Shown here: piece by piece, positions 17,480 through 64,000 of the stretch
How the letters are laid out: each line of letters opens with the position of its first letter
Position numbering within the stretch: the first letter of the stretch is position 1
NCBI GenBank assembly: GCA_037951105.1
Contig: JBAMJV010008309.1
Coordinates: forward strand, 1-64,000
Direction: 5' to 3'
DNA length: 64,000 bases
DNA from: Echinarachnius parma
Lineage: Eukaryota; Echinodermata; Echinoidea; Clypeasteroida; Echinarachniidae
Translations under genes and position numbers: made by a program
The notes under the pieces: generated by a model
What the model was told of the DNA's origin: nothing
Seen by the model: only the letters and a program-made list of their open reading frames with translations
Database searches by the model: none

Positions 17480-18340
17480 CCCTATGACACGAAATAGATA
17501 ATGATGTGTGTTGGATAAACTGATGAATAAAGGTGCAGCATATATTTCAACTCAGCAGATATGAGTCGTGTGGTGTATTGAGTGTTTTGTCGATGAAGAC
17601 CGTGTTTTTGTTTAATATACGTTTGATAAAAAGTCGTTTTGTATAACAAGAGCTCGCCCTTCCCCAAACAAGATTATAATAATCCAAATAAGGTAACACA
17701 AGGGCGTTGTAGAGGGTAAACAATATATTCACAGGAAGAAAGGGACGAAGTGTTTTCATAATATCTACTGACATACTAACTTTACTACAAACATAATCAA
17801 TATGATATTTCCATGATAGCTTATCATCAATCAAAACCCCTAACCGATTTACTTTGTGCACTTTTTCCAAATACATATCATCCAATTTCACTTGAATATC
17901 AAAATCAGGGGGACGGCCATTTTTCAAAGAAAATATCATAAATTTACTCTTATCAAGATTAACTGACAACTTATTCGCTTTAAACCAGTTTGAAACCTCG
18001 TGTAATTCACGAGTAACAATATTACCAAGTGTCATTATATCATTATGAGAAACAAATGTTTTTGTATCGTCGGCATACAATATCAAATGCAAACATTGTG
18101 AGGTATTATAGCAATATCATTTATATCAAGAAGAAACAGTAGGGGCCGAGTATTCTCCCTTGAGGGACACCACAATTGACAGATAAAGATTCGGAATATA
18201 AATTATTAAGATAAGTACGTTGTTTTCTTCTGGAAAGATAATTTTAAACCATTCATACTGGACATTATTATCATCAACAAATATATCAGTTCTTTCTTTA
18301 AAACGAATTTGATCATTTATATACCATCATAATCGTCTTC
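17480..18340 (-). pseudogene. LINE RT, palm and thumb part (minus strand)
   Basis: The minus-strand frame 18092-17547 contains ILYADDTKTFVS, the RT catalytic Y-A-D-D motif. It is followed by NWFKANKLSVNLDKSKFMIF and then GVLIDDKLSWKYHIDYVCSK. Upstream, after a frameshift, come VNCGVPQGRILGPY and D-I-N-D-I. Downstream LRPFLPVNILFTLYNALVLP, then Y-L-D-Y-Y-N-L-V-W, is the usual thumb region. This is the distal half of the LINE whose proximal half is at 19640-20790; repeats and a MITE separate the halves. Frameshifts make it inactive. Confidence 0.85.
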
Positions 18341-49680: not shown

Positions 49681-50319
49681 TGATAAACCGGACGTGTCGT
49701 GTTCGATTCCAGGCTATTTTTCCTTGCTCATTTGTAATTACTATAGTAAATTATTAAATATATGGTAATACAACATAACATAGACAATTCAATGTTGGGG
49801 ATAACGGTCGTGTGGAGTAACAGCATAATTCAATGAAAGATCGTGTTACGAAATCGTAACTTGTATTCAATAATGTATAAGTAGAATCCTGATACACCGT
49901 AATGGAGTAGGCAAAAACTCCTTGAAAGGTGAGCTGTTTTTCGGAACTGAATCGTCATTTCAATACTTGGCATTGCTACAGCTGTGTTTCATGTGTTTAC
50001 AACGATAACACATTTTGTATTATTGAACCGTCATGAAATGCACCGTTTATCAGAATATGGCGCTAGGGTCAAGGGTGATAAATTGGACCATACACTGTTT
50101 TGTGTGTGTAATTTTAGGAGTTTTTGGTCATCTGTTTGTGTGTAATTTGAAGAAACATTTTGGACTTGACTTTTGCCTACAGAACTACAAGCCTATGTAC
50201 AGCCATGTTAGCGGTACCATAGCTAAGTACACACTCCATTGAATGTATTGATTTGTTTGGACAGTCTTTTGTATTTGAAGCACTCAAGCCAACACACCAA
50301 TTGAACTGGGACAAAAGAT

Positions 50320-50869
50320 TTGTTTGCTGTAAATAGTGCATCTAAACAGCTATTCATCATGAACTGGCCGTGTACTGCCATCTTGTTTGCACTGATTGTG
50401 TGTTGCAATGAACAAGTATGTACAATTAACATTACGAGTAAATCTAGCTATTACTATCCGAGATTAACTGGAAAGTTGCTTCACCATCACAAGTATTTAA
50501 AGGCACCGACTTTATATTACTCAAACTCTTCAGCATGTTTTCACATTGATATTTTGGTATGTTGTGACATACACCCAAATCCTGGTCCCGTCTTTGTGAA
50601 ACGTAACCAGCATTATTTGATTTCTGAACTTTATAAACTGCGATCACACAATGAATGTAATCATTTACCACCTACAACATGGAAAACCGTCGTCGAACTT
50701 GGTATTTCAAAGTGCCCTACCCGTACTCATCGGGGAATGCGCGCTGGGACGTGCAAACTCACACCTATTCAACGAGAGTACTTCGTTACTGAATCAGCAG
50801 ATCTCAGTAATCGTTTTGAAAAGAGAATAAGCTGTTCAAGCAATCTTATTCATATTAAACCATCTGTCT
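50320..50869 (+). pseudogene. LINE ORF N-terminus: signal-like leader plus 2A-like motif
   Basis: Met at 50320 or 50359 (MNWPCTAILFALIVCCNEQV) gives a hydrophobic leader like a signal sequence. Residues 82-90 from the first Met are C-D-I-H-P-N-P-G-P (50563-50589). This is the ribosome-skipping 2A pattern, D-I/V-x-x-N-P-G-P, in the H-P-N-P-G-P form known from non-LTR retrotransposons. Skipping occurs between the final G and P, so the leader part would be released and the downstream polyprotein would start with P. The following 90 residues (W-K-T-V-V-E-L-G-I and so on) match the region between 2A and endonuclease in such LINEs. The frame originally ran on into the endonuclease; a small MITE now interrupts it. 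Confidence 0.75.
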
Positions 50870-50983
50870 CATGGGCGTCGATACTTACGTAATACCCATT
50901 CATCAGGGGGGGGGGGGGGATGGATGAATGGATCATCCCCCCCCCCCTGATCAATGGATATCAATGACAGATCGACGCCCGTG
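50870..50983. mobile_element. 114-bp hAT-like MITE with 8-bp duplication
   Basis: The ends CATGGGCGTCGAT and (reversed) CACGGGCGTCGAT are flanked by the exact 8-bp duplication ATCTGTCT (50862-50869 and 50984-50991). The middle consists of a poly-G arm (about 50907-50920) and poly-C arm (about 50937-50947) that can pair. Taking it out joins the LINE frame K-P-S-V to L-L-N-V-K without a shift. An 8-bp duplication fits the hAT superfamily. Confidence 0.8.
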
Positions 50984-50991
50984 ATCTGTCT

Positions 50992-51458
50992 TATTGAATG
51001 TGAAGAGAACTTATGATCTACCAACTCTTTATTTGATGAACGCGAGATCAATGAAAAACAAATTTGATGAAATCGTCGTTGCAGTTAACAATTATAATGC
51101 TGATGTTTTGGCGAACACGGAAACCTGGCTGGATCCAGATACACCGATTGATTACTTCTCGATGGCCGGATACATGTCTTTATCCAAGCCACGAATTAGG
51201 AAGAAAGGCGGTGGAGTAGCAGCCTACATCAAGCATCGCTTCAAACCACGCGCCCTCCCGATCAACATACCTGATGAGCTGGAAGTCATCTGGATTCACC
51301 TGCGACCACCGCGGTTACCTAGGAGAATCTCAAGCATCATAGTTTATGTCGTATACTACCCTCCTAAGCACCCGAATGCCGATATATACATTGATCATTT
51401 AGTTTCCACTATCGATCATTTATTAATACAATATCCAGAGGCAGGATTTGCTATAGTA
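50992..51458 (+). pseudogene. LINE endonuclease domain, N-terminal half
   Basis: The frame has TLYLMNARSMKNKFDEI, the usual L-N-A-R-S-L-x-N-K start, then ADVLANTETWLDPD with the catalytic E-T-W-L. RKKGGGVAAYIK follows (G-G-G-V-x-x-Y). It stops where a fold-back element begins, just before the expected G-D-F-N motif. Confidence 0.85.
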
Positions 51459-51626
51459 AGCAAATAATAACCGTTGGTGAAGGTGATGAGACAAACTATC
51501 ACTTCCAAGGCGATCTGGATGTAGCTATCTTTCCGAAGCGAAGCTGAGGAAAGATAGCGTATACAGTCAGATCGCCGAGGAAGTGATGGTTTGCCATCGC
51601 CTGAAACCAAAAGGTGATTATTTGCT
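51459..51626. mobile_element. 168-bp fold-back inserted in the LINE endonuclease
   Basis: The arms AGCAAATAATAACC and AGCAAATAATCACC (reversed) are followed by GGTGATGAGACAAAC and complement, then GGCGATCTGGATGTAGCTAT and complement. The centre GAAGCGAAGCTGAGG is a short loop. Confidence 0.75.
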
Positions 51627-52335
51627 TTATATTCCACATTGGAAACATTTCACTGGTAGGGTCTACGAGAAAGACAATCTAACTGTTTTTAATGTTAGGT
51701 CTAGTTCTAACAGTTACCGGACAAGACTTTAATCTACTTACCAACAACGCTATTCCAATTAACTCCATGGGACCATGACAATTCCATAGGCTAGCACTTG
51801 GGTCTATTCAAAAATGAAAGTGAGCACTTGGGTCTATTCAAAAATGAAAGTGAACTCCAACTCCAAGTCAGACTCCAGGAAAATTGTAATTAATGATGAT
51901 GAAACACTAAACAGTTCAAAAGTCAACGTTCTAAAGACTAAACGTCAAATAGAGTCATGGCAAACGATGTACGATACATACAGTGCATGTACGTATACGC
52001 ATTACATTTGTAATTCGCGCCACACATAGATATCCGCGGTTTCACATTGAATTGACGGTGCAGTGTGTGGCTATTCAAATCCCGTACTAAATGCAGCAGA
52101 CCTACCGTACCCGGTACCGTACGGTAGGTCTACTGCATGTAGTACGGAATTTGAATACACACTCTCCACAGTCAATTCAATGCAACCGCGGGATGTAGAT
52201 AGTACGTTACCAATTATCTAGTGAGTGCAACGCACTTTCACCCAAGATATCTACACAGTGTAACGAAGATTTCTTCTCCCATCAATGATGGGCGAAACTA
52301 TGTTTCATCACGTGATTAACTTTTGACCAATCGTA
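51627..52335. other. Further insertions: 30-bp direct repeat and fold-back
   Basis: AGCACTTGGGTCTATTCAAA (plus AATGAAAGTG) occurs twice in tandem at 51793-51852. A fold-back lies at 52028-52200 with CCGCGGTTTCACATTGAATT and worn complement, centred on ACCTACCGTACCCGGTACCG. The remainder is unassigned. Confidence 0.6.
52028..52200. mobile_element. 173-bp fold-back element
   Basis: Arms of about 80 bp pair with several mismatches, and the centre is GTACCCGGTACCGTAC. It is probably a fold-back MITE; the target duplication is not resolved. Confidence 0.7.
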
Positions 52336-52339
52336 GAGC

Positions 52340-53740
52340 AAGATTCTTAGTATGTGGAATATAATAGGAGATATAAATGATCTTTATGTGAACCAAATTT
52401 TAGCAAATGATGCCTTTTGTCAAGTTGTTAATAAACCAACAAGAGGTCAAAATAAATGGATAACATTATTACAAATTGTAATTACGCTTATGAACCGGTT
52501 GAGATCCGTGCACCGCTAGGGATGAGTGACCACAATGGCATCCTGTGGCGCCATTCAGCCCTCTTCTGTCAACCTGGCAAACTGACCAACGAGACGCGGA
52601 CAAAGATAGTGCGCCCTCTGACAGATAGTGGACTCCGAGAGTTTGGCACTTGGATAACCCATCACACGTGGGAAGATTTATATCAAATCACTGATCCTAC
52701 GGATATGTGTAATTTATTTTATAGTGTTGTGCGAGAACATATTGATCAGTCCTTACCTACTATGACTGTCAAATTTCATGAAACTGATAAGCCTTGGATA
52801 TCTTGTGAGATTAAATCATTAATTAAAAGAAGACAGCAAGCTTGGCACTCTGATGATAAAGAGCTATGGAAATATTTTCGAGATAAAGTTATAGATGCAA
52901 TAATATTGGCTAAGGACTCATTTTATAATATAAGAATTCATACACTTAAAATAAATAATCCTGCTGATTGGTATCGACATATAAAACTCATTACCCAAGG
53001 ACCTCATAATCAACCATCGATCAACATACCAGGTCTTGCCGCTGATCAACCTGAACATTTTAAGGAAGCAGCTGATTGTATCAATATTAAGTTTTTTATC
53101 TGTGGCAGCAGATCTCCCGAAACTTGATAAAACAAAGTTACCAGCATATTTACCTTCATCTGTGGATTGGCCAATAATAGAACCGAAAGACGTGTATGAT
53201 TTGTTACGTAAACTCAATTTGCAGAAATCAACTATTTTAGGCGACTTGCCTGTTCGAATTTTACGTGAATTTGCTTATGAGTTATCTTATCCATTATGTT
53301 GTATTCTTAATTTTGTATTTAAACAAGGGGTTTTCCGCAAGTTTGGAAGTATGCAGAGATAATACCAGTACCCAAATCATATTCACCAACTCTTCTTGAA
53401 TTACGACCCATAGCCCTAACTTCTTATTTTGCTAAAATAGCAGAAACTTGTATTGTTAAGTGGTTGTGGGAGGATATTGGTGATGTGATTGATAAAAATC
53501 AGTATGGGAATCGTCGAGGCCTTTCATCTTGCCATTATTTAATTGGGATGTTACATAATCTATATAAAAATGCAGATAAACAAAAACCAATTTCAACTAT
53601 AGTTTTAACTGATTTTTCTAAAGCGTTTGACCGGATCGATCATAATGTTTTAATTTGTAAACTTGTTAAATTGGGTGTACGACCATGTGTCATTTCATTA
53701 ATAGTAAATTTTTCAAAATGCCGCCAAGATTTTTCTTGAT
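52340..53740 (+). pseudogene. LINE endonuclease end, linker and RT
   Basis: Near 52358 comes G-D-I-N (the G-D-F-N site), then VVNKPTRGQN, DNIITN and MSDHNGI. The last is the S-D-H motif of apurinic-type endonucleases. The 223-residue frame continues through a linker (PWISCEIKSLIKRRQQAW). After a frameshift the RT entry follows: IIEPKDVYDLLRKLNLQKST, then LPVRILREFA, LRPIALTSYFAKIAE, LTDFSKAFDRIDHN. The catalytic A-D-D-type box further on is damaged (Y-V-D-M-I then stop, about 53846-53865), after VPQGTKSGPISC. Confidence 0.85.
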
Positions 53741-58798: not shown

Positions 58799-59598
58799 AT
58801 ACACTGTTGGTCATAAAGTTGGAATATTTTTTTTTTTTTTTAATCCAACTTCATTCCTTTTCCCTACTTTTGCGCCTAATGAACCATTTTGTGCTAAAAA
58901 ATAATGATTTTATAATGTTTCCAAACTAACAATGTACACTAAATGGTTGCATGAATTTGCATTAATCAATGTAGCCTTTTGTGTTAAGCTTTGAAAGGCA
59001 GGACCTGTGATGATTGGCCCCTTTCCCTCTCCAAAGCGTATGTCCAACATGTCATCGTTATGGGTCATTTCTCAGAGTTGGCTGTAAAATTTTCAACCAA
59101 AATTGGCACAGAGGCTCTCTAGGCCAAACTCCATCCAACGCCATTTGCTACACGCCAAACGATGCGTGTGCTCCACCAGGAAGGGGTGTCATCAAGCAAT
59201 GTCCACTTGTTCGTTGGAACATCGCAGGTTACGGTCTGTAAAATACTCAGACGTCATCGAGAGGAGGGTAAATTAAAACTACGGGAATCTCTAGGACGTC
59301 CACAATTGACCACCAGGATAGATTATCGCAAATTGGGTAACCTTTGCCGTAGAAACCGGAAACGACAAAAAGGAGTCTTCGCCGTGTATGAAGAAAATAC
59401 TATGGAATCAACGCCTTCCGCCAAACTGTAGATCAGAGATCGCTCTAACATGGTCACCGAGCAAGACAAACTACCAAATGTCACCCCATACCATGCAACC
59501 AAGATTTAACGGGCGTTCCTGGACTAGGGAGTACAGAAAATCGCCGCCTGGACACTCGTGATATGTCATCTTAATGGATACGAGCCATACCACCGTTG
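58799..59598 (+). pseudogene. Decayed Tc1/mariner element
   Basis: The segment beginning ACTGTTGGTCATAAAGTTGG followed by AATATTTTTTT is a typical Tc1-type terminal repeat. The frame from 59162 reads SQVTVCKILRRHREEGKLKL, then GRPQLTTRIDYRKLGNLCRR and N-R. This is the paired-type helix-turn-helix and G-R-P-x-x-T-T hinge of a Tc1-like transposase. Earlier codons around 59020-59160 fit poorly and stops follow, so the catalytic domain is not recoverable. Its right side is cut where the RAG1-like transposon begins. Confidence 0.7.
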
Positions 59599-59635
59599 CA
59601 CAGTGGGCCAGGTGTGAGCAAAAGTGCGCCAAAAT
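59599..59635 (+). repeat. Left terminal inverted repeat of the RAG1-like transposon
   Basis: CACAGTGGGCCAG, nine variable bases, then AAAGTGCGCCAAAAT. It reads inward and is matched in reverse at 63880-63916. Confidence 0.85.
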
Positions 59636-60197
59636 AGTGACTTGGTCATGGAAATGAAATTGCTTTTTTCATGTTTTAAGCAAAGATTACAACCTGTAGA
59701 ACATCTCCGAGCAATATTTCTTCTCGATATTTATTTTAAGTGTGTCATTTTTCTTCACAAAGTCCGGAAATGTTGATTTTAGGGAACACATTGTATTAAA
59801 TGCAACATTGCGGTTTTGTCATGATATTTGCCAAACGGCTTGCTTAATCGACTTAAAATTTGGACTGCTCGTTTTATAATAGTTATTCTAAGTAATCATA
59901 CATTTTAAAGCCAAACTATTAGTTATGTCGGAATTTATGTTTAGTAGAAACAAACAAATAGTAGGATAAAATCGATGTTTTTTTTCATGCGCAAAAATGG
60001 TCAACATTGCTGTCGATTGCTGCGCTAAAAATATCATGATTGCCTTCCTCAGAATGTATGCTTTACTTGGATACCAAGTTTGTCTGCCACCATCTGCCAC
60101 CTTATGAGTAAGAAGCGGTTTTGCAACCACATGTTCGCCCTTTTTTTTGCCGAAATCGCACTTTTTTGCGAAAGAGCGCGCCGTGCGCTCATACCAA

Positions 60198-60270
60198 CGA
60201 ACGTTGAGGGCGTAAATACGTTCGTTGGGATCATACCATTGAAGTACATATCACGTTAGTACTTCAATGG
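60198..60270. repeat. Two adjacent short hairpins
   Basis: CCAACGAACGT pairs with ACGTTCGTTGG (60198-60228) and CCATTGAAGTAC pairs with GTACTTCAATGG (about 60237-60271). Both lie inside the 5' non-coding part of the RAG1-like transposon. They may be a small palindromic insertion. Confidence 0.65.
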
Positions 60271-60479
60271 CTCATACATAGGCAAACTACATGAGATACA
60301 GTTGTACGCTTTTTTCTTTGTTGACACAAGTAGCATCTATAAGAAGTCCTCTGACATTTTGTTTAAGATGATGGGACAATCATATGGATTGTATGAAAGT
60401 AGTCAATGGTAGAAGAGAGCTTAAAAAGGGAAGGAAAATCACAGAAAGCCAAATTCAAGATAGCGGGGGAGAGATATAG

Positions 60480-60570
60480 CGAAAGATAGAAAGAGGTGGA
60501 GAAAGAGTGAGGGGAGAGAGAGCGAGAGAGTGGGGAGAGGGGGAGTGAAAGGGAGGGGGGGGGGGGGGGT
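60480..60570. repeat. Purine-rich tract with poly-G
   Basis: GAGAGAG/GGGAG units end in a run of about 14 G. The S/P/L-rich minus frame here is compositional. Confidence 0.8.
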
Positions 60571-61417
60571 GTATACGTCACGCTCGTCGCAATCAAGGGT
60601 TTTAGTACGGTTTACGTCAAGAGGGTAAAATGACCATGAGTGTCTGGCCGGGCTTACCTTGTGAGGCGTGTGAGGTCAGTGACTCGCACTGGCGATAAAC
60701 AAAAGGATATACTATAAGCATGGATAGTACTATAAGTATACATAAATGTATTCTTCTATCAACCTCAATACAAACTTGTATTTTGTCCACTACTGCCTAG
60801 ACGTTTTATATCTCGAGGAAACTGTTTTAACTGTTATATTCTTCGTTAAAGGTAAGGATTATCCCTTAAGTATTATTAACCTGTATGTCTCGATGCAGTT
60901 CATGCTTGTGCGATTGCTATTGTACAAAATTATGCTTCTGTTATGATGCAGGGTGAGGAGGATAATATGTTTCCCAATGTCCGTAAATACCATTTTTGGT
61001 AAAATAAACTATTGCTTGCTTTTAACCCATACTTTTTTTCTTCTCCATTATGATTTAGACCCAGTTTTGTCAGTCAAGTTGGATCAATTCTACATTTTCC
61101 TTTTACATTTGAAATTTCTCTTCTTCGAAAGTACATGTTATGGGATGTACAGGTATTTCTTAGGCAATATTATTAAGCATGCGTTATGAGTGTTTGAGGT
61201 ATTGTATGTATCTATCTGCCCTATATCCCTATATCTAACTATATTATAATATGGATATCTAAATCTGTCTACTCACCTATCTTTTATTGAGAGGGGCGAT
61301 TATAATAACTGGAATAAAGTTAACACTTCATACCAGTTGTTTATAGAAAATGCTCTTTGTATTACAAATTTGTCCAACACTAAAATCAAGCCATCAAAAT
61401 GTTCTTGTTTTTCTTAC

Positions 61418-61419
61418 AG
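61418..61419 (+). other. Splice acceptor before the RAG1-like coding exon
   Basis: TTCTTGTTTTTCTTACAG has a long pyrimidine tract ending in AG, 25 bases before the strong-context start codon CAAAATGG at 61445. It suggests a spliced 5' leader. The open frame extends upstream to 61337 but that part reads through the pyrimidine tract. Confidence 0.5.
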
Positions 61420-61444
61420 ACCCAACATTCCGGGTTATTTCAAA

Positions 61445-63529
61445 ATGGCTTCTGTAAATATTCCAAGGCAAAGACTTTTCGATGTACTTCATTCTTCTGA
61501 CAGTTTAAACAATACGGCAAGTGGACTGAAAAAATGCATGGACTTCATCAGTGAATATTATAACTTTGATAACTCTGTAGTACCCGAAGAACTACTTCAT
61601 AAGATATCTGAGTCCGTTAAGGAGTTTCTTTACAAGTGCCGAGATAAGTGGAGGAAAAACAACCGCACATGTGTTAGGTTTCTCGAGAGTAACAGCGAGT
61701 GGCTAGAAAGCAATGTATTTCCTGATGAAATTGCAGATTCGCTATTAGGCTTAGAGAAAAACATGCCGTCAACATCCCGAATGTTGACTGCGGGCCGACC
61801 GGATAAAGAATGGGAAGAGTTGTCAAAAAGATCTAGACAACGGAAGGCACGAGAATTGTTGAGTGAGAGAGAACCACCAGAACTAATTTTCGCTGCATCA
61901 CAGGGAACTTACAGGAAAAACCCAGATCTGAAATATGTTCTAAACTTCGCTATGTTTTCCCCGACACGACCCACCAAGATCAGGAAACTCATCACAAAAC
62001 CAGTGAAGACACCTGAAAGGTACACTCCGGATGAAGCGCTTACCCTCCTTGTAGAAACGGGGATGACGAAACAATCGTACCAGACTGTTAGGTCGTCAGC
62101 AAAAAGAAAAGATGCCGATATCTACCCGCCATACAATGAAGTGAGGAACGCAAAGCAGAAGTGCTATCCAGAAAACATCACAGTAAAGGAAGATTCTGCC
62201 GAGGTTCCTCTGCAGAATCTCGTTGATCATACTGCCTTGAGAATTATCGAAAATCAGAAAGAGGTAATAACAAAAGTGGTGGAGGGTCTGGAGGATGATG
62301 AGCAGATGGTGTGCAAGTTGATTTGCAAGTATGGATTCGATGGCTCATCGGGACAGAGCGAATACAAACAGCGGTTTTCTTCCACAGAAAGGACGGACGA
62401 GAGTTTGTTTTGCACAACTGTGGTTCCTCTACAGCTTACATGGGGTGATCGAATCTTGTGGGAGAATCCAGTGCCATCCTCAACAAGATTCTGTCGACCA
62501 CTCCGACTCAATTCTGCCAAAGAAACAACAGAGTTAAGCCAGGGTGTGGACACATCAATCAAACAGGAGATAGATAGTCTTCAACCAATGGATGTTGCCC
62601 TAGACATCACATACGAAGTAGAGGCAGACCTGAACAGAATCTCGGATGTGAAAGTCAACTATGAACTACATCTCACAATGGTCGACCAGAAGGTCATCAA
62701 TGCCCTCACCGAAACAAAATCTTCCATGAGATGTTACGTTTGTGGTGCGACCCCAACACAGTTCAACAACCTGGACGAAATGCCTTGCTCAGATCCGAAG
62801 ACCTACCCAGCTAGCCACCTGACGTCGGGCCGATGTCGGAAGTTGGTTGCCGGATGTCGGCATATCGCCGTTGGCTCGAGGTTAAAATGTCCGCCAGCCC
62901 AACATCGTCACGACGTCATTTTTGTGATATATTGGCATAACGTCATTTTCCGACAATGGCCCAACATCATGTCATGTCATGTAAGCGTCCATGTCGTGCT
63001 GGTTCATGGTGCCAGAATTTTGTCATCTTCAGTACTGCCCATCAGGATGATGAGTGAAGAGGCACAGGAAGCGAGAAACAAAGATAACAAGATCTATCGA
63101 CGAGAATATGCTAGGAAAACATCTCGTACGGACAACATCAGCGATGTTTTCCACAGACTGATGGTAACGGGTGACATCGTGATCAGTAGCAAGTCTCTGA
63201 AAGTACAGAGATCACAGCCACTTCCTCTTGATGTGAATAACATGCTGAAAGATCAAATCACCCAAGACAGTCTTGATGACACAGCAGAGAGTGACTCTGA
63301 TATTAGTATTGTTTTCAGTTATGTGTTATCTTATTCTTCCAAGAAGGAATGTCATACATTTCAAATGTTATGTGAGCTGGAATATTGGTTCCACTTATTG
63401 ATGCATAAAAAGAGTCAGTGTAATTTGAATGTGTCTATGAGTTACAATGAATATATCCCTTGTCCAATCAGAAAACAGTATTTTGATGACGTCAGAGAAA
63501 TGTGTAAATGCTCCAATTGTGTTTCTTAG
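61445..63529 (+). CDS. RAG1-like transposase (damaged copy)
   Basis: The 694-residue frame (Met 61445) has the RAG1-core layout. Residues 117-119 are G-R-P, followed by a basic helix (KRSRQRKARELL), as in the nonamer-binding domain. SYQTVRSSAKRK, then YPPYNEVRNAKQKCYP follows as in the dimerisation/DNA-binding region. D299 in GFDGSSGQSE fits the position of catalytic D600 of vertebrate RAG1. SSTRFCRPL follows. D414 in MVDQKVI fits D708. C430 and C433 in CYVCGAT fit zinc ligands C727/C730, and H516 and H521 (HVVLVH) fit H937/H942. E542 in SEEAQEARNK fits E962. The C433-H516 gap is only 83 residues, against about 207 in RAG1, and some 50 of these come from a MITE-like insert. Most of the insertion domain is thus lost. 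Residues beyond about 620 run into a tandem repeat and are not native. It would act in the nucleus as a DDE-type cut-and-paste enzyme. This copy is probably inactive. Confidence 0.85.
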   Translation: MASVNIPRQRLFDVLHSSDSLNNTASGLKKCMDFISEYYNFDNSVVPEELLHKISESVKEFLYKCRDKWRKNNRTCVRFLESNSEWLESNVFPDEIADSLLGLEKNMPSTSRMLTAGRPDKEWEELSKRSRQRKARELLSEREPPELIFAASQGTYRKNPDLKYVLNFAMFSPTRPTKIRKLITKPVKTPERYTPDEALTLLVETGMTKQSYQTVRSSAKRKDADIYPPYNEVRNAKQKCYPENITVKEDSAEVPLQNLVDHTALRIIENQKEVITKVVEGLEDDEQMVCKLICKYGFDGSSGQSEYKQRFSSTERTDESLFCTTVVPLQLTWGDRILWENPVPSSTRFCRPLRLNSAKETTELSQGVDTSIKQEIDSLQPMDVALDITYEVEADLNRISDVKVNYELHLTMVDQKVINALTETKSSMRCYVCGATPTQFNNLDEMPCSDPKTYPASHLTSGRCRKLVAGCRHIAVGSRLKCPPAQHRHDVIFVIYWHNVIFRQWPNIMSCHVSVHVVLVHGARILSSSVLPIRMMSEEAQEARNKDNKIYRREYARKTSRTDNISDVFHRLMVTGDIVISSKSLKVQRSQPLPLDVNNMLKDQITQDSLDDTAESDSDISIVFSYVLSYSSKKECHTFQMLCELEYWFHLLMHKKSQCNLNVSMSYNEYIPCPIRKQYFDDVREMCKCSNCVS
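62819..62975. mobile_element. Small MITE-like insert within the RAG1-like gene
   Basis: GACGTCGGGCCGATGTCGG at the left and (reversed) GACATGATGTTGGGCCATTG then TCGG at the right form imperfect inverted ends around about 157 bp. Protein similarity stops just before it and resumes right after it (SVHVVLVHGA). The frame stays open through it. Confidence 0.6.
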
Positions 63530-63835
63530 GTCCAGAAACCCCTTATAAGTTCCACTAATCAGTGTAATATGAATCTGTCTATGTGTTACAATGAATATTT
63601 GCCTTGTCCAATCAGAAAACAGTATTTTGATGACGTCAGAGAAATTTGAAAATGCTCCAACTGTGTTTCGTAGGTCCAGAAACCCCTTATAAGTTGCACT
63701 AATCAGTGTAATCTGAATCTGTCTATGTGTTAAAATGAATATTTGCCTTGTCCAATCAGAAAACAGTATTTTGATGACGTCACACGGATTTGAAAATACT
63801 TCCATGGAATTCTATGGGTCTGAAAACCCCTTAGT
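63416..63835. repeat. 144-bp tandem repeat, nearly three units, with TGACGTCA-like site
   Basis: The units start at 63416, 63560 and 63704 (CAGTGTAAT). Each contains TTGTCCAATCAGAAAACAGT and ATTTTGATGACGTCA. The transposase frame ends inside unit 1, and the minus-strand frame 63805-63395 is a periodic artefact. CCAAT-box-like (CCAATCAG) and CRE-like (TGACGTCA) words are conserved in all units. Confidence 0.85.
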
Positions 63836-63879
63836 TCCTTTAAACTGGAACTTCATTAACCTTCTTCAATGAGTAATTA

Positions 63880-63916
63880 ATTTTGGCACACTTTGAAACG
63901 GTTCTGGCCCACTGTG
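63880..63916 (-). repeat. Right terminal inverted repeat of the RAG1-like transposon
   Basis: ATTTTGGCACACTTT, nine variable bases, then CTGGCCCACTGTG. It is the inverted partner of 59599-59635. Confidence 0.85.
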
Positions 63917-64000
63917 CAGAAATCTTGGAGCTTCTCGGCACGTAATTGATGAACCCTTTGTCTCCCTCTGTTCGGTCAAGGATGTTATGGCTCATACCCA

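Follow-up and report, generated by a model that had tools for sequence, protein, structure and literature searches.

Positions 59599-63916 of a 64,000-nucleotide stretch of an Echinarachnius parma contig (JBAMJV010008309.1, positions 1 to 64,000; hereafter the window) hold a gene with RAG1-like landmarks between inverted ends, which raises the question of whether this is a RAG1-only relative bearing on the origin of V(D)J recombination, as was originally predicted, or a transposon of a familiar sort. The Transib enzyme is a distant cousin of RAG1, the protein that cuts antibody genes. We conclude, with a probability of about 0.94, that the element is a degenerate copy of an autonomous cut-and-paste DNA transposon of the Transib superfamily, belonging to a subfamily in which the named relatives with the best scores come from echinoderms. 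Homology to Transib transposases, the active-site and zinc residues, the paired ends and the absence of a core segment are established here. The element is of an ordinary, known animal transposon kind and adds no new link to the account of how V(D)J recombination arose.

The single 694-residue gene of the original prediction was recovered as an open reading frame (ORF) with the following landmarks.

61445-63529, + strand: Transib transposase ORF, 694 aa, with an internal replacement and a run-on C terminus
62339-62341, + strand: codon of D299, first catalytic aspartate, invariant in alignment A1
62684-62686, + strand: codon of D414, second catalytic aspartate
62732-62743, + strand: CYVC zinc pair (residues 430-433)
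62990-63007, + strand: HVVLVH zinc pair (residues 516-521)
63068-63070, + strand: codon of E542, catalytic glutamate

The protein is homologous to the Transib core and contains its DDE triad and CxxC/HxxxxH zinc residues (C430/C433 and H516/H521). These residues align with the matching positions of HzTransib (Helicoverpa zea; PDB 6pqn/6pqx), which has a collinear core and aligns with residues 191-679 of P0001, an intact relative of the window protein; through the family profile they also align with RAG1L and RAG1. These catalytic and zinc residues stand where the prediction placed them, but its claim that every landmark of the RAG1 core is present was not confirmed, a large part of that core being missing. 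The spacings cited in its support were short, local ones, and the sole long spacing, from the first C of CxxC to the first H of HxxxxH, is 86 residues here versus 166-171 in 34 of 38 relatives (the remaining four did not fit the spacing pattern and were left uncounted). The protein lacks a counterpart of P0001 residues ~456-591, leaving the catalytic core incomplete by ~136 residues and the copy degenerate. Across the 38 relatives 47 positions are invariant; 18 of these fall in the lost stretch, where the window protein matches only one, and outside it 28 of 29 are kept, the exception being a changed glycine. The lost segment has been replaced as follows.

62810-62980, + strand, edges approximate: foreign stretch of ~57 codons in place of ~136 core codons (P0001 residues 456-591)
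62817-62972, no strand assigned: 156-bp piece resembling a miniature inverted-repeat transposable element (MITE), with imperfect inverted ends at 62817-62841 and 62948-62972 (20/25 matches)

We infer the MITE-like identity and limits of this piece from its inverted ends, and the limits are uncertain because another pairing, of 62820-62839 with 62899-62918, scores equally. No second copy was found by BLAST within the window. Since the segment linking both zinc pairs is lost, this copy is almost certainly unable to make active transposase, judging from its sequence, and its ends may be usable at most by the enzyme of another copy. Such damage agrees with a remark in PMC4411706 that Transibs of the autonomous kind tend to be scarce and are frequently damaged. 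At the C terminus the frame continues 73 residues beyond the end of P0001, and the final 38 lie within a tandem array just inside the right element end.

63415-63797, no strand assigned: 144-bp tandem array (Tandem Repeats Finder, 2.7 copies; 63415-63846 when taken as three copies), with second and third copies 93% and 75% identical to the first

The inverted ends opening with CACAGTG, also part of the original prediction, were found at 59599 and 63916 as terminal inverted repeats (TIRs).

59599-59635, + strand: left TIR, 37 bp, reading CACAGTGGGCCAG, then 9 bp mostly unlike the right end, then AAAGTGCGCCAAAAT
63880-63916, - strand: right TIR, 37 bp, matching the left TIR at 28/37 positions

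Agreement between the two falls into three blocks, with 13 matches followed by 1/9 and then 14/15, and with two flanking bases included there is a perfect 15-bp inverted repeat (59597-59611 with 63904-63918). Among 200 dinucleotide shuffles of 59400-64000, a single one yielded a perfect inverted repeat as long as this with arms at least 500 bp apart, and CACAGTG occurs six times in the window on both strands, counting the two element ends. Taken by themselves the ends are therefore no more than moderately improbable, but they become convincing once the Transib gene that they enclose is considered. As in Transib ends, both open with CAC and resemble the heptamer of the recombination signal sequence (RSS), and the vertebrate consensus heptamer, CACAGTG, is identical to that of the element. 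An A-rich word, GCCAAAAT, begins 22 bp past the heptamer in both TIRs, and because this distance is the same at each end the element is symmetric, unlike the vertebrate 12/23 RSS pair, whose asymmetry it lacks. A 5-bp target-site duplication is the mark of an insertion event, and for an old copy it corroborates rather than defines. None is visible here (the flanks are CGTTG and CAGAA), and we therefore file the gene and its ends as Transib-derived rather than as an intact insertion. Symmetric spacers, of 20-22 bp, are likewise shown for Transib ends in a figure legend of PMC8355894.

A further word, AGTGNGCCA, is present in both conserved blocks of each end, exactly 21 bp apart, or two helical turns, and four of its seven occurrences in the window are those in the element ends. 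As the ends are copies of each other this recurrence counts as one observation, of a word picked after it had been seen. It is conceivable, though unlikely, that the signal of this Transib gained its distal, nonamer-like half by duplication of the heptamer-side block, with one protein surface contacting both copies along a single face of the DNA; if so, block duplication would suggest a possible starting route for the bipartite RSS.

An intact element would encode one DDE transposase of ~700 aa, with an N-terminal helical region, a GRP segment and a RAG1/Transib-type core that includes an RNase H part and a zinc-binding part. By analogy with the established reaction of HzTransib and RAG, a pair of these subunits would engage the two CACAGTG ends together, cut one strand 5' of each heptamer and leave the flanking DNA closed as a hairpin, and the excised element would insert elsewhere with a 5-bp target duplication. 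The gene is preceded by the following region.

59636-61444, + strand: 5' non-coding region of the element

Within it, AAAG/GTAAGG at 60852 could serve as a splice donor and TTTTTCTTACAG, ending at 61419, 25 bp upstream of the transposase start codon, as an acceptor, which hints at an intron in the 5' leader.

What precedes the Transib core is common to the relatives, which have ~190 residues ahead of the HzTransib-like part. The match to HzTransib (a chain of 497 aa) starts at its residue 7, and this chain therefore lacks the N-terminal region of the P0001 group; the window copy lacks the 136 core residues. In the window protein this region was modelled as a helical bundle (residues 1-106), then the GRP segment, then four helices; the bundle (window 61445-61760; P0001 residues 1-100) has mostly a predicted local distance difference test score (pLDDT) above 90 and is common to Transib transposases of ~700 aa. 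No fold match to the N-terminal region was found in the PDB, and the RAG1 nonamer-binding domain (NBD) was absent from the matches listed. Against the family GRP profile the RAG1 NBD ranks 76th of 2001 sequences (one real and 2000 shuffles), hhalign gives a weak GRP-to-GRP alignment (26 columns, probability 4.3%, E 0.0095), and the stretch collinear with the mouse RAG1 NBD scores 2.5 bits. We do not claim homology of the GRP segment to the RAG1 NBD from these data. An equivalent NBD with a conserved GRP in Transibs of both subgroups is already published (PMC9435367).

Reading the gene as a RAG1-like relative is thus partly supported, but the prediction missed that this copy is a broken one. 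Could it instead be a RAG1L element of the ProtoRAG/TransibSU type that has lost RAG2L, and so a RAG1-only offshoot of the RAG clade? The fold and catalytic residues are common to RAG1 and RAG1L, with vertebrate RAG1 having the fold and active site of the window family; the heptamer is identical to the RSS consensus, as given in PMC8289069, and PMC4411706 records RAG1L genes in echinoderms. A member of the RAGL/ProtoRAG/TransibSU group would be expected to have a linked RAG2L gene and a core that resembles RAG1L/RAG1 more than it does Transib; a CTT* C-terminal tail is a further mark of the group, and in this copy the C terminus runs into repeats. The core here is not closer to RAG1L/RAG1, and the sequence similarity of the window family to amphioxus RAG1L (ProtoRAG, PDB 6b40, which has RAG2L) is weak at 59.5 bits. 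As had been claimed, no uninterrupted RAG2-like frame lies inside the element, judged by frame length only and with a gene split by introns not sought: the other stop-to-stop frames of at least 100 aa, all on the - strand, are one of 120 aa at 59888-60250, one of 108 aa within the gene and one of 138 aa across the tandem repeats. The element thus has one gene, as Transibs do, and descent from the RAG clade is highly improbable.

The open frame might also suggest a domesticated host gene, 694 codons long with a shortened core and a non-transposase role. In favour of this, the frame stayed open despite the replacement, and outside the replaced stretch 28 of 29 invariant positions are kept. However, the frame sits between transposon ends, its C terminus runs into tandem repeats, the replaced stretch resembles another mobile element, and a young damaged copy accounts for the open frame equally well; we give domestication very little credence. 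The abruptness of the replacement, together with the preserved frame, would also fit an assembly or haplotype artefact in which foreign sequence was wrongly joined into the gene of an intact element. Against this, the foreign sequence ends in inverted repeats, as a small mobile element does. We consider an artefact quite unlikely.

As one more damaged copy of the Transib family, the element is itself of small significance. Better subjects are the intact relatives P0001-P0007 (~700 residues, with the N-terminal helical region and GRP segment), which are suited to asking what precedes the Transib core and whether that part contacts each end in its distal half. Uncharacterised echinoderm proteins of the same subfamily come from Diadema antillarum (P0009, 61% identity), Amphiura filiformis (P0010, 54%) and Strongylocentrotus purpuratus (P0012, 61%); their database models are short (383-448 aa), and the internal replacement is a feature of the window copy. 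Taken alone, the nearest named relatives of the gene make an echinoderm host probable, although this is weak evidence since mobile elements can pass between species. Pfam family PF26100.1 is precomputed for 24 of 78 relatives, and our Pfam scan did not report it for P0013 or P0059.

Elsewhere in the window, which is 37% GC, three of ten other ORFs matched in the Pfam scan.

17547-18116, - strand: reverse transcriptase, below the curated cutoff
50985-51467, + strand: endonuclease, just below the cutoff
53323-53739, + strand: reverse transcriptase, above the curated cutoff

Directly left of the element, a 102-aa frame (59123-59431, + strand) reads like a paired-type/Tc1-like helix-turn-helix and gives weak Pax-domain matches only (E 0.77 and 1.2). 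The endonuclease and + strand reverse transcriptase matches belong to non-LTR retrotransposon fragments at 50305-53739 (+ strand), and upstream of them lies a frame with DIHPNPGP, which we take to resemble a 2A peptide.
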